From: Synechococcales cyanobacterium GL140_1_metabat_312
Lineage (GTDB): Bacteria; Cyanobacteriota; Cyanobacteriia; Leptolyngbyales; Leptolyngbyaceae
Length of the DNA: 64,000 bases
Direction of reading: 5' to 3'
Assembly: GCA_025351345.1 (NCBI GenBank)
Contig: JANXWB010000017.1
Coordinates: 1-64,000, forward strand
In this document: piece after piece, positions 6,220-60,762 of the stretch
Layout: every line of letters starts with the position of its first letter
Numbering within the stretch: position 1 is the first letter of the stretch
Position numbers and translations under genes: made by a program
Notes under the pieces: generated by a model
What the model was told of the DNA's origin: nothing
What the model saw: only the letters and a program-made list of their open reading frames with translations
Database searches by the model: none

Positions 6220-6717
6220 CTAATCTTGGATGGTATTAAGCCAATCGACTAAATCATTCAGTTTTGTGAAATCCCACAATTGTTCATTCAATAATTCTAA
6301 TTGTTCTAAAGAGAGTTGATTGACTTGGACGTTAAGACGATCGGGTAACTCTCCGACGGTACGTGGCAAGAGTCGTAGGATTTGCGATCGTTGGCGGTCG
6401 AGGATTTGCGATCGTTCAGCTAAACGGCCTTGTTCTAATCCTTGAGTAATTCCTTGTTCTAATCCTTCAGCCAATCCTTGTTCTAATCCTTCAATCAATC
6501 CTTCTTTTCTTCCTTCTTCTCTTGCCTCTTCCTTCAAACTTGTTGAAACACTGTACCAGTCTCGATAATACTTCAGGCTATTTTCATAAATTTGTTGTTC
6601 ATTTGTTGTAAAGTTCGCAATTTCAGCAGTTTCAAATAGTTCATTAAATACGTCTTCTTGGAATACGATCGGACGATCGGTTAAATCAGGTAAATAGACA
6701 CTAAAGGAAGAGGAGAA
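6220..6717 (-). pseudogene. PD-(D/E)XK nuclease family transposase, C-terminal remnant
   Basis: In one frame the minus strand reads ...YLPDLTDRPIVFQEDVFNE..., then EQQIYENSLKYYRDWYSVST and an EGLEQGLAEGLEQG repeat before the stop at 6220. This order is typical of the C-terminal part of Rpn/PD-(D/E)XK nuclease family transposases. The frame is closed upstream by TGA at 6718-6720. A matching upstream segment, VVINPTFAPLFDSPLPLVS, continues in another frame, so the gene is frameshifted, and the catalytic N-terminal domain is gone. A TTG at 6537 could start a 105-aa peptide, but it would consist only of the repeat region and tail. Decay of a mobile gene is the simplest reading. Confidence 0.7.
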
Positions 6718-16235: not shown

Positions 16236-16967
16236 TTAAGCAAAATAGGCTTCTAGTTCCTCTGAACCACCAATTAATTTGCCATCAATGAAGATTTGCG
16301 GAACTGTCAATGCACCTGTGGCCGCCTTCAAGGCTAGTAAGCTAACATCTTCGCCAACCAAAACTTCCTCATAGGTGATTCCATGTTCGCGGAATGTTGT
16401 CTTTGCTTTTGCACAAAATGGACAGCCTTGTTTCGTAAACAGAAATACACTGTTGGGTTTTTTAGCTTCCGGATTAATGTAGGTAAGCATTGTCTCCGCA
16501 TCCGAAACCTTAAACGGATCTCCCGGCTCTTCCGGCTCAATAAACATTTTATCGACAACGCCATCCTTGACAATCATCGAATAACGCCACGATCGTTTTC
16601 CAAAGCCTAGATCAGCCTTGTCAACCAACAAGCCCATTCCATCCGTAAACTCACCATTTCCATCCGGAATAAACCGAACATTCTCTGCTTTTTGATCTTT
16701 AGACCATTCCTCCATCACAAAGCCATCATTCACCGATAGACAAACAATCTCGTCTACACCATTTTCCTTGAGCGCATAAGCTAACTGGTTGTAACCGGGT
16801 ACATGGGTCGAAGAACAAGTCGGTGTGAATGCCCCTGGCAATGAAAAGACAGCCACGGTACGTCCAGCAAACAACTCATCGCTCTTAATATCGACCCAAT
16901 CGCCATTCTCTCTCGCCCGAAATGTCACACTCGGAACTTTCTGACCTTCGCGATTTTGAAATACCAT
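16236..16967 (-). CDS. Peroxiredoxin-glutaredoxin fusion protein
   Basis: A thiol peroxidase that reduces hydrogen peroxide and alkyl hydroperoxides, with its own glutaredoxin reductant attached. The 243-aa protein has an N-terminal Prx5-type domain (residues 1-165), with peroxidatic Cys51 in [12 protein letters not shown]. The C-terminal glutaredoxin domain (about 172-243) has CPFC at 182-185 and the [14 protein letters not shown] glutathione-binding segment. Hybrid Prx5-Grx proteins are known in cyanobacteria and some pathogens and are glutathione-dependent. It is divergent from the histidine phosphatase gene at 17115. Confidence 0.93.
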
Positions 16968-19773: not shown

Positions 19774-20562
19774 TTAGTCGATCGGTTTCCCTCTGAACCG
19801 CTTGAACCACGATCGTAACCATTGCCAGCCAAACAGAATTAAAAATGCTGGATTATTAATCACATAGCGTTTCCATAATCGGCCTGGCTCCATGATCAAA
19901 CGATAAAGCCATTCTAAACTACAGCGCATCATCCATCTCGGAGCTTGGGATACTTCTCCCGTGTGAAACCGAAATGCGGCCCCTACTCCGATCATCACGG
20001 CCTGAATTTTTGATTGATTTTGCGCCATCCAAAATTCCTGCTTTGGACAACCCAATGATACAAATACCACTGCCGCCCCTGATGCATTAATCCGATCGCA
20101 ATCTTGTTGTATTTCTTCCGGTGTCAGAGTTCTAAATGGGGGTGAGTATGAACCTGCAATTGGCAATCCTGGAAAATTGTTGACTAACTGATCTTGTAAT
20201 TTCTCTAGAGTTGCCCAAGATGAACCATACAAATAAATTGGTAATCCCAGTTGAGCGGCCCGATCGCACCAAGCCAACATCAAATCTGGGCCATAGACTC
20301 GGGCTTGATCTAGATGTCCCAACAGCCGTAGCCCAAGTACGATCGGCATCCCATCCGGCGTAACAATCGTCGCACCATTCACTACCGATCGATAATATTG
20401 ATTCCAAAATGCTGTCATGATCACATGCACATTCGCCGCAATCACATACCCCGATTGTTTTGCTGCCGTCAATTCAACCAAGCGATCGCAGACTAATTCA
20501 TAACTCGTACAGTCTACTGATGAATTTAAAATTTTTGTACGCATGGGTTGAGCTTGAATCAT
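19774..20562 (-). CDS. WecG/TagA/CpsF family glycosyltransferase
   Basis: A glycosyltransferase of the WecG/TagA/CpsF family, GT26, that transfers N-acetyl-mannosamine-type or glucosyl units to a lipid-linked acceptor in cell-surface polymer synthesis. Signature parts are ATIVTPDGMPIVLGLRLLG with the conserved Asp, RVYGPDLMLAWCDRAAQLG, and VFVSLGCPKQEFWMAQN, followed by GVGAAFRFHTGEVSQAPRWM. The C-terminus is basic and amphipathic, as expected for membrane association. The ATG at 20562 overlaps the TGA of the GT2 gene (TGATG), so the two are translationally coupled; a GTG one codon upstream is also possible. Confidence 0.92.
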   Translation of the reverse strand: MIQAQPMRTKILNSSVDCTSYELVCDRLVELTAAKQSGYVIAANVHVIMTAFWNQYYRSVVNGATIVTPDGMPIVLGLRLLGHLDQARVYGPDLMLAWCDRAAQLGLPIYLYGSSWATLEKLQDQLVNNFPGLPIAGSYSPPFRTLTPEEIQQDCDRINASGAAVVFVSLGCPKQEFWMAQNQSKIQAVMIGVGAAFRFHTGEVSQAPRWMMRCSLEWLYRLIMEPGRLWKRYVINNPAFLILFGWQWLRSWFKRFRGKPID

Positions 20563-21335
20563 CACGGTAGACTCCTAGTCACGATCGGAATTTCTGGTTT
20601 ACCGATCGCATATTTCACCATCAATCGCAGTCCAAACTGTAGTAAACGCAGCAATCCACCATAGCACCATACAATCCGAATCATTTCTCGAAATCGCCTG
20701 CCCTTTCCCGTCGTCGTTAAATTCTCTCCCGTCACACGGTACCCAGCAAATACATGATTCACTCGTACAAAATCATAATAGTCTGAAACCCGAATCCAAT
20801 AATCCCAATCAAATCCGTAGCGATAGAGAAGCGATAATTTACCTGTTTTTAAAACGACTTCTCGGCGCAAAAAAGTTGCAGGTTGAGTAATAAAATCATG
20901 GGTTCTTAATGCTTCTTTTGAATAGTCTCGAATATTAGTTACAGGTTTTAAAACAGTATCAAATTTATCTATATAAACTGCTTCTCCATAAATTACATTG
21001 ACATGAGGCTGCGATCGAAAGTACTCCGCCACTAGTTCTAAGGTTTGGTCTAGATAAATATCATCCGCATTTAACCAAGCAAAAATATCACCCGTTCCTA
21101 ATGCCCAACCTTGATTAATTGCGTCAGCTTGACCTAGATCAGCCGATCGAATAATTTTAATTTGACTATGACCTTCGTATTTCTTTAAAATATTTACAGT
21201 CTCATCTGTTGAGCGGTTATCTAAAATAAAATATTCAAGATCTACTGTTTCACAGCATTGCTTTAAAACACTTTCAATCGTGCGTTCTAAATAAGAACCC
21301 TGCTGATAGGATGGAGTGACGATCGTAAATTTCAT
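20562..21335 (-). CDS. Glycosyltransferase family 2
   Basis: A GT-A fold glycosyltransferase of 257 aa. It starts MKFTIVTPSYQQGSYLERTI and has the nucleotide-sugar metal site WLNADD at about residues 87-92, and QPATFLRREVVLKTG. It probably adds a sugar to an extracellular polysaccharide or lipid-linked oligosaccharide; donor and acceptor are unknown. It is sandwiched between a histidine kinase gene and a WecG-type gene, all on the minus strand. Its ATG is the last of four ATGAAATT copies that form a chain of overlapping mini-ORFs. No clear Shine-Dalgarno precedes it, so translation may depend on coupling. Confidence 0.9.
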   Translation of the reverse strand: MKFTIVTPSYQQGSYLERTIESVLKQCCETVDLEYFILDNRSTDETVNILKKYEGHSQIKIIRSADLGQADAINQGWALGTGDIFAWLNADDIYLDQTLELVAEYFRSQPHVNVIYGEAVYIDKFDTVLKPVTNIRDYSKEALRTHDFITQPATFLRREVVLKTGKLSLLYRYGFDWDYWIRVSDYYDFVRVNHVFAGYRVTGENLTTTGKGRRFREMIRIVWCYGGLLRLLQFGLRLMVKYAIGKPEIPIVTRSLP

Positions 21336-21371
21336 GTGAATTTCATAAACTAAATTTCATATAAATTTCAT
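21332..21371 (-). promoter_or_regulatory. Chain of three overlapping mini-ORFs leading into the GT2 start
   Basis: On the minus strand ATGAAATT occurs four times, starting at 21371, 21360, 21346 and 21335. The first three open ORFs encoding MKFI, MKFSL and MKFT. Each stops at a TGA that overlaps the next ATG as ATGA, and the last overlaps the true GT2 start. The first ATG is 3 nt after the TAG of the histidine kinase gene and in its frame. This would let terminating ribosomes reinitiate step by step from the kinase into GT2. Confidence 0.6.
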
Positions 21372-21374
21372 AGT

Positions 21375-23324
21375 CTAAAATGGAGGACTTGGGGAAATCA
21401 TCGGTAGAACAGAAGCATCTACTTTCGTTTGTGGAATCGAGGATTGTGACGGTAGTTGAGGGTGAGGGGTAACGATCGCAATGCGCGGCAAATCAATTCT
21501 GAATGCCGATCCTTTCCCCAGTTGACTTGTTACCGTAATGTATCCGCCCATCATATGAATTAACCATTTTGTAATCGCTAATCCGAGTCCTGAACCTGAA
21601 TGCCGACGAGTTGTAGATTGATCAACCTGTCGAAATTCTTCAAAAATATAAGGGATATTTTCTGGCCCAATTCCAACGCCCGTATCTCGAACAATTATGG
21701 TAATTCTATCTTCTCCTACTTGCTTTGCTTCAACCGTTACACTGCCACTATCCGTAAATTTTACCGCATTAGAAACTAGGTTTACAATCACCTGCCGTAA
21801 CCGAGTTCGATCCGTCACAATAATATCATCGCTTAGTTGGGCCTGCATTACTAAATCAATGCCCTTTTGTTCGGACAACGATCGCAATTCATCCATAGTT
21901 AGCCTCAATAAACTCGATAAATTTAATTTTTCAAGTTTCATATCCAAATGACCCGATTCAATTTTCGACAACGTTAAAATATCATTAATTAAGCCCAGTA
22001 AGTTCTTTCCATTATTGAAAATTCGTCCCACCATATCAAGCTGAAACTCATTTAGTTTTTGGCGTTGCAAAAGCTGAGAAAAACCAATAATCGCATTCAT
22101 TGGAGTCCGTAATTCGTGGGACATTGTGGCCAGAAAATGGGATTTCAACTGAGTTGCTTCACGCAATTTTAAGTTTTGAATTTGAATTTGTTGTCGTTGG
22201 CTTTCCAGTTCTTGGTTTTGTTGTGACAACAACGCATTTTGAAAGGCCAGCCGTTCTTCTCGTTCTTCTAAAGCATTAATCAATTTTGCATTATCAATGG
22301 CGATCGCCGCCTGTTCACTAAATGCACTTAAAAGCCGTAGATCTTCCTCATCAAATGCCGTCTCATCTTCCCAATTCCCCAATATTAACACCCCCATTCG
22401 GCCCGCTTGAGGGGACTCTATTGTCACTACACACAGGGCCGATGGAACCGTTTCAATGGCTAATTGATCATCTGCTAATTGGTTATTGTTTAGCGCTAGG
22501 TCTGCCGATCGTAATACCGTCGATTTTCCGCTACTGAATACTTGTCCAATTGCTCCATTCTCTAGGTCCAATGTCCGCTCAATATTAAATCTCGATTTGG
22601 CGAAACCAATCGTCGCCACTAAATTTAACTTTTTTGACGGATGAAATAATGAGCGGTTGCTGTCCTTAGAATTGTGCAACGCGATCGCTCCAAACTGACC
22701 ATCAGGCATCGCGGCACACACCTCATCGATCATCGTTTGAAACAACCCAGGTAAGTTTGTCAGTCGTTGATTCAGCAGATTAGTTAGACACTGAAGGGTC
22801 CGGAGCTGCTGCTGGTTGCGGCCTAGACTCCTAGCTGCACGATTTCGGACTTTTTCTGTATCCTGGACCACTTGGTTAAGACGACGGTTGTCCTCCAAAA
22901 CCTGCTTAATTCGTAAATTCATCGATCGCTCCCCATCTAGCGCCTGAGCCAGACGTACAGCAGTCCAAATTTTCTGACAGAGCAAGTCTGGAGTAATCTC
23001 ACCGTAGGCTAAATATTCTCCCGCCCCTTGTTCTAACCATTCCCAACCCTGGCGATGGTTTGACTCTGCCATCAACATCACAACAGCCGGAGCTTTTGGC
23101 TGATTTCCTAGCGCCTCTAGTAGAGATAAACTGTGGCTATCTGTTACCAATGCTAGTACCAGAACAGCATCAAAACTATCAGTTTTCAACATTTCGATCG
23201 CTCTCGCTCGGCTTTCGGTCTCGACAGCAGGGAACTTCATCCCAGCCAAATCCCAGGCTTGACAGACTAGGGATCGATCGACAGCACTGCCTCCTGCGAT
23301 AAGGAGTTTGAGATCAAACTTCAT
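21375..23324 (-). CDS. Sensor histidine kinase with pseudo-receiver and GAF domains
   Basis: A 649-aa cytoplasmic signalling kinase with no membrane segment. The N-terminal 125 residues look like a receiver domain but lack the phospho-acceptor Asp (FDAVLVLALVT) and the conserved Lys (YLAYGEI), so it is a pseudo-receiver. A GAF domain follows at about 190-345, then a Gln-rich coiled coil. The HisKA box SHELRTPMNAIIGF has His403, and the HATPase region carries N-box VNLVSNAVKF, G1 DTGVGIG and G2 GSGLGLAI. The kinase lies directly upstream of two polysaccharide glycosyltransferases in the same direction, and a NarL-type regulator is divergent from it. Partner specificity is inference. Confidence 0.92.
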   Translation of the reverse strand: MKFDLKLLIAGGSAVDRSLVCQAWDLAGMKFPAVETESRARAIEMLKTDSFDAVLVLALVTDSHSLSLLEALGNQPKAPAVVMLMAESNHRQGWEWLEQGAGEYLAYGEITPDLLCQKIWTAVRLAQALDGERSMNLRIKQVLEDNRRLNQVVQDTEKVRNRAARSLGRNQQQLRTLQCLTNLLNQRLTNLPGLFQTMIDEVCAAMPDGQFGAIALHNSKDSNRSLFHPSKKLNLVATIGFAKSRFNIERTLDLENGAIGQVFSSGKSTVLRSADLALNNNQLADDQLAIETVPSALCVVTIESPQAGRMGVLILGNWEDETAFDEEDLRLLSAFSEQAAIAIDNAKLINALEEREERLAFQNALLSQQNQELESQRQQIQIQNLKLREATQLKSHFLATMSHELRTPMNAIIGFSQLLQRQKLNEFQLDMVGRIFNNGKNLLGLINDILTLSKIESGHLDMKLEKLNLSSLLRLTMDELRSLSEQKGIDLVMQAQLSDDIIVTDRTRLRQVIVNLVSNAVKFTDSGSVTVEAKQVGEDRITIIVRDTGVGIGPENIPYIFEEFRQVDQSTTRRHSGSGLGLAITKWLIHMMGGYITVTSQLGKGSAFRIDLPRIAIVTPHPQLPSQSSIPQTKVDASVLPMISPSPPF

Positions 23325-60651: not shown

Positions 60652-60700
60652 TTCGAGTCCAAAAGTAGAGAAAATTATCAAAAACCAGTCAAATTGCTCA

Positions 60701-60744
60701 TCAATCAATCAATTAATTAATCAATCAATCAATCAATCAATCAA
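60701..60744. repeat. TCAA tetranucleotide microsatellite, 11 units
   Basis: Eleven tetranucleotide units (nine TCAA, two TTAA) lie between the nirA stop and nrtP. Flanks TTGCTCAT and ATGAGCAG form a near-inverted repeat around it. On the minus strand each unit gives TTGA, so the unit next to nrtP supplies a TTG that reads in frame into the permease. Confidence 0.9.
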
Positions 60745-60762
60745 TGAGCAGTTTTGCACTGC

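Follow-up and report, generated by a model that had tools for sequence, protein, structure and literature searches.

The kinase–glycosyltransferase junction

The DNA analysed here is a 64-kb window of contig JANXWB010000017.1, from the 3.85-Mb genome of Synechococcales cyanobacterium GL140_1_metabat_312, and the element considered is a short tandem repeat lying on its minus strand between the genes of a histidine kinase and a GT2-family glycosyltransferase (hereafter GT2). Read 5' to 3', the minus strand at this junction runs ...CCATTT TAG ACT ATGAAATTTAT ATGAAATTTAGTTT ATGAAATTCAC ATGAAATTTACGATC, where TAG is the stop codon of the kinase. Three units of 11, 14 and 11 nucleotides (nt), all beginning ATGAAATT, are followed directly by the GT2 start, ATGAAATTTACG, so that four ATG codons occur at positions 21371, 21360, 21346 and 21335 with spacings of 11, 14 and 11 nt. 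After the intervening ACT, the first ATG stands 3 nt past the kinase stop. Each of the three upstream ATGs opens a short open reading frame (mini-ORF) whose TGA overlaps the following ATG as ATGA, the last link being the ATG of GT2 itself. The direct distance from the kinase stop to the GT2 start is 39 nt; were the mini-ORFs translated, the stepwise stop-to-start distances would be 3, -4, -4 and -4 nt. An earlier note on this DNA had described four copies of an ATG-bearing unit at 11-14 nt, reading MKFI, MKFSL and MKFT before GT2, with ATGA overlaps and a first ATG 3 nt past the kinase stop; sequence, coordinates and frames all proved exact.

The array was detected independently by Tandem Repeats Finder (TRF; 21326-21379, period 25, score 80, and also period 11), its adjacent, similar, head-to-tail units being those of a slippage-type short tandem repeat. 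Upstream of GT2, the window shows nothing resembling a Shine-Dalgarno sequence, the spacer contains no sigma-70-like promoter or terminator match, and the predicted RNA fold of the leader is not unusual (z 0.08). An alternative GT2 start was rejected, as no in-frame ATG, GTG or TTG occurs between 21335 and the preceding TGA upstream; the TTA and GTT codons found there in the GT2 frame are not starts. The kinase itself begins MKF like GT2, probably a coincidence of a common start context. The features of the locus are listed in Table 1.

Table 1. Genes and repeat units at the junction (aa, amino acids; ORF, open reading frame)
Feature	Position	Strand	Basis
Histidine kinase, 649 aa, stop TAG 21377-21375	21375..23324	-	ORF; Pfam GAF_2, HisKA, HATPase_c
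Repeat unit 1, ATGAAATTTAT, 11 nt, opens MKFI* (21371-21357)	21361..21371	-	sequence
Repeat unit 2, ATGAAATTTAGTTT, 14 nt, opens MKFSL* (21360-21343)	21347..21360	-	sequence
Repeat unit 3, ATGAAATTCAC, 11 nt, opens MKFT* (21346-21332)	21336..21346	-	sequence
GT2-family glycosyltransferase, 257 aa, start ATG 21335	20562..21335	-	ORF; Pfam Glycos_transf_2, E 2.2e-26
WecG/TagA/CpsF-family glycosyltransferase, start overlaps GT2 stop	19774..20565	-	ORF, Pfam

The junction in related genomes

The junction was compared among four genomes of one genus, namely that of the window, G001, G003 and Alkalinema sp. CAN_BIN05 (G002), each of which has the kinase-GT2 pair. The spacer of CAN_BIN05 is also 39 nt long and contains GAT, ATAAAATCTAGTAT, ATGAAATTCGC and ATAAAATTCGT before the GT2 ATG. 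In G001, it is reduced to 17 nt (TCT, then ACGAAGCTTAGTCT), with a single 14-nt unit that starts with ACG and opens no mini-ORF, and in G003 to the 9 nt of AATAGTCCC, in which no repeat is recognisable. With the GT2 start included, there are thus four units in the window, four in CAN_BIN05 and two in G001. A 14-nt unit containing TAGT, recognisable in three of the genomes, begins 3 nt beyond the end of the kinase gene in CAN_BIN05 and G001 and occupies the second place in the window, while 11-nt units have been gained before or after it, or lost, between genomes. Copy number and arrangement therefore vary between close relatives. This displaced 14-nt slot, together with gains and losses of whole 11-nt units, is the typical pattern of slippage and supports the proposal of the earlier note that the start region was duplicated in this way. 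As the independent metagenome-assembled genome CAN_BIN05 has a matching four-unit layout and spacer length, an assembly error is an unlikely source of the array.

The mini-ORFs did not follow the repeat. The GT2 ATG is found in all four genomes, and the upstream ATGs were mostly absent: CAN_BIN05 keeps one of three (the other two read ATA), the only candidate in G001 is ACG, and G003 has none. The sole mini-ORF of CAN_BIN05, MKFA*, stops at a TAA that falls 7 nt short of the GT2 ATG, so that no ATGA link is left. Among the four genomes, the chain is therefore confined to the window, and the overlap that a coupled kinase-GT2 pair should conserve is not found in relatives, where spacers measure 39, 17 and 9 nt. 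Absence of the chain from close relatives had been named beforehand in the earlier note as evidence against a role, and this is what the compared junctions revealed.

The extent of this loss can be compared with overall divergence. Four-fold-degenerate sites of the window and CAN_BIN05 differ at 24-31%, and an unconstrained ATG has a survival chance of 0.47-0.33 at a per-site difference of 0.22-0.31. Retention of one ATG out of three in CAN_BIN05 is the outcome expected of neutrality, the loss matching near-neutral divergence. A tree of the kinase and GT2 codons groups G001 with CAN_BIN05 (bootstrap 71), a grouping backed by 66 sites versus 40 and 24 for its alternatives, which leaves two possible histories, a double expansion of the array or the loss of two units in G001. 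Both imply that the repeat is unstable.

Beyond the genus, the GT2 orthologues in two genomes of two other genera (G026 and G013, 61-64% identity) have no adjoining kinase, the nearest relatives of the kinase being located on other contigs. The opposite end of GT2 is more constant. Its stop overlaps the WecG start at 20562-20565 within GTGATG (as GTGA or TGATG), and an overlapping GT2-WecG junction occurs in the four genus genomes, as TGATG in three and as ATGA in G003. Because this overlap has been kept throughout and the mini-ORFs have not, conserved translational coupling would be expected at the GT2-WecG junction and not at that of kinase and GT2.

Rarity of the repeat and of the chain

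Searching 42 genomes of the family, this array was the only occurrence of three or more ATGAAATT at 11-14-nt spacing. It also provided the only ATGA-linked chain with two or more links in the window. First-order Markov simulation with the dinucleotide content of the window (both strands, per 64 kb) gave an expectation of about 2.4 chains of two links and 0.03 of three, the latter scaling to about 2 per 3.85-Mb genome by chance. The tandem repeat is thus real and not a product of chance, but the chain taken by itself is no more than mildly unusual. Elsewhere in the genus, ATGA-linked 11-nt chains gave five matches, scattered and no more than two to a genome, in none of which does an ATG open an ORF longer than 29 aa. 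Likewise, at the four other two-copy ATGAAATT sites checked in this genome (L063, L067, L084 and L088), no ORF of more than 20 aa begins at the second ATG, and none of these sites lies at the start of such an ORF.

A probable slippage product with an automatic chain

Based on these data, the array is most likely a lineage-specific duplication of the GT2 start region made by slippage, with the mini-ORF chain as a by-product and no dedicated regulator. The units are homologous, and the first bases of GT2, ATGAAATTTAC, are their probable source. Replication slippage would have copied the 11-nt start region (ATGAAATTYAC) into the spacer between kinase and GT2, adding to a 14-nt unit that is older and common to the relatives. 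The links would then have arisen automatically, every copied ATG terminating at the ATGA of the next copy, because the unit begins with ATGA and its periods, 11 and 14, are both 2 mod 3. Among simulated perfect arrays of units beginning ATGAAATT, 86% were chained at period 11 and 82% at period 14, and ATGA-unit arrays with a period of 0 or 1 mod 3 were never chained. The idea that the copies were kept since each one ends exactly at the next is not supported, as this property follows mechanically from the unit and its period. Ordinary termination-reinitiation could, in this strain, take ribosomes from the end of the kinase along the chain to GT2; alternatively, GT2 might be started independently in an AU-rich leader without an obvious Shine-Dalgarno motif. 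From the comparison of sequences, there is no visible selection on the array as a relay or a brake. Sequence, unit homology and the failure of relatives to conserve the mini-ORFs are observed directly; an origin by slippage and the absence of a selected function are inferred.

Several points weigh against this interpretation. The first ATG stands at exactly 3 nt from the kinase stop, and all links are -4 overlaps, the arrangement most used for coupling (PMC10666635). Unit lengths (11 and 14 nt) in three genomes are all 2 mod 3, although these represent at most two independent events. The widest reinitiation gap never exceeds 17 nt in any of the four genomes (3 nt in the window, 17 then 7 nt in CAN_BIN05, 17 nt in G001 and 9 nt in G003), while the direct stop-to-start distance is 39 nt in two of them. 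Finally, selection may be limited to this strain or species, the comparison covering four genomes of the genus.

Alternative readings

The most serious rival is a compensating relay, in which a spacer grown to 39 nt by slippage would still hand the kinase ribosome on stepwise, the insertion being tolerated since coupling survives, as proposed for insertions of mycobacterial interspersed repetitive units (MIRUs). A spacer of 39 nt would normally uncouple the two genes, given that reinitiation coupling drops by 80-100% at 38 nt in Escherichia coli gene pairs and has all but vanished at 22-23 nt in H. volcanii (PMC10666635). This distance dependence is disputed in the literature, a review citing spacings up to +25 nt without effect. 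The -4 nt overlap is the commonest coupled arrangement, MIRU ORFs have been proposed to soften insertions by coupling at the same distance (PMC12548453), and none of the four genomes requires a hop of more than 17 nt. However, neutral decay of copied starts also gives hops of this size, and CAN_BIN05, with a spacer of equal length, lost two of its three ATGs, as neutrality predicts, and every ATGA link. The need for kinase-GT2 coupling is itself unsupported, as GT2 occurs without the kinase in other genera. We consider a relay of this kind unlikely. Yet, because -4 links couple well and reinitiation at 38 nt is weak, the mini-ORFs might fortuitously maintain a coupling that the longer spacer would otherwise abolish, and a non-conserved relay in this one strain through known termination-reinitiation is mechanistically possible.

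A more specific version, less probable still, would be a home-grown counterpart of MIRU insertion, slippage copying an ATGA-bearing start and so keeping a growing spacer coupled, with 2 mod 3 as the tolerated period. If so, duplications of start regions within operons should favour periods of 2 mod 3 genome-wide.

The array might also act as DNA, its four A-tracts (AAATT) at 11/14-base-pair (bp) spacing forming phased curved DNA or direct-repeat sites of a regulator of GT2-WecG. For 11-bp A-tract phasing, the array ranks among the highest 0.04% of 50-bp stretches in the window, and every CAN_BIN05 unit retains its A-tract even where the ATG has gone; AT periodicity of 11 bp is moreover widespread in cyanobacterial genomes (PMC4132750). 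However, any AT-rich tandem repeat of 11 nt is trivially phased, the phase is lost at the 14-bp step, and neither G001 nor G003 has the array. No promoter-like match was found nearby, and the 42 family genomes offered no other three-copy match, hence no recurrent operator. This reading appears very improbable.

A selected translational brake or leader, in which translation of the mini-ORFs limits GT2 output in proportion to kinase translation, can draw on the complete three-link chain right after the kinase stop, but this chain follows automatically from the repeat and is conserved in none of the three relatives, which makes a brake barely credible. The relay or brake tying GT2 to the kinase, as suggested in the earlier note, thus gains no support from the comparison, all three other genus genomes lacking the chain.

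Relation to known systems

As a slippage product, the array resembles variable-number tandem repeat (VNTR) loci at gene starts, which share head-to-tail, near-identical short units differing in number and order between relatives. It differs in that its units hold a start codon and its period links the copies by ATGA, and the variation reported here is across four genomes rather than at the population level. Mycobacterial MIRU elements are the closest known parallel. Here as there, a repeat is located at a start codon, and contains an internal ORF whose end overlaps the following gene at -4 nt, as ATGA (PMC12548453). MIRUs are dispersed as mobile copies at several loci, whereas the present 11- and 14-nt units occupy a single site, look like local duplications, and have no further three-copy array among the family genomes searched.

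The mini-ORF stops overlap the next ATG by 4 nt, as in termination-reinitiation coupling at ATGA or TGATG (PMC10666635), of which the neighbouring GT2-WecG junction would be a conserved case. In contrast, the predicted mini-ORFs have 4-5 codons and are not conserved. As a repeat, the array is ordinary, and its curious pattern of reading frames comes about automatically. It calls for caution with striking chains of overlapping mini-ORFs, which can arise automatically when an ATGA start is duplicated at a period of 2 mod 3. Chains of this kind, if they did maintain coupling as spacers grow, would offer bacterial operons a simple route to tolerate insertions between coupled genes.

Other features of the window

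Two further arrays were detected by TRF. An ATCA tetranucleotide array at 60700-60745 (11.5 copies, score 78) is a possible slippage-prone site, and an imperfect tandem array at 6428-6535 has 24-nt/12-nt units (CCTTGTTCTAATCCTTCAGTCAAT), periods that are multiples of three. The ORF at 16236-16967 encodes what we take, by eye, to be a peroxiredoxin with a glutaredoxin-like part (motif CPFC) joined to it at the C terminus.
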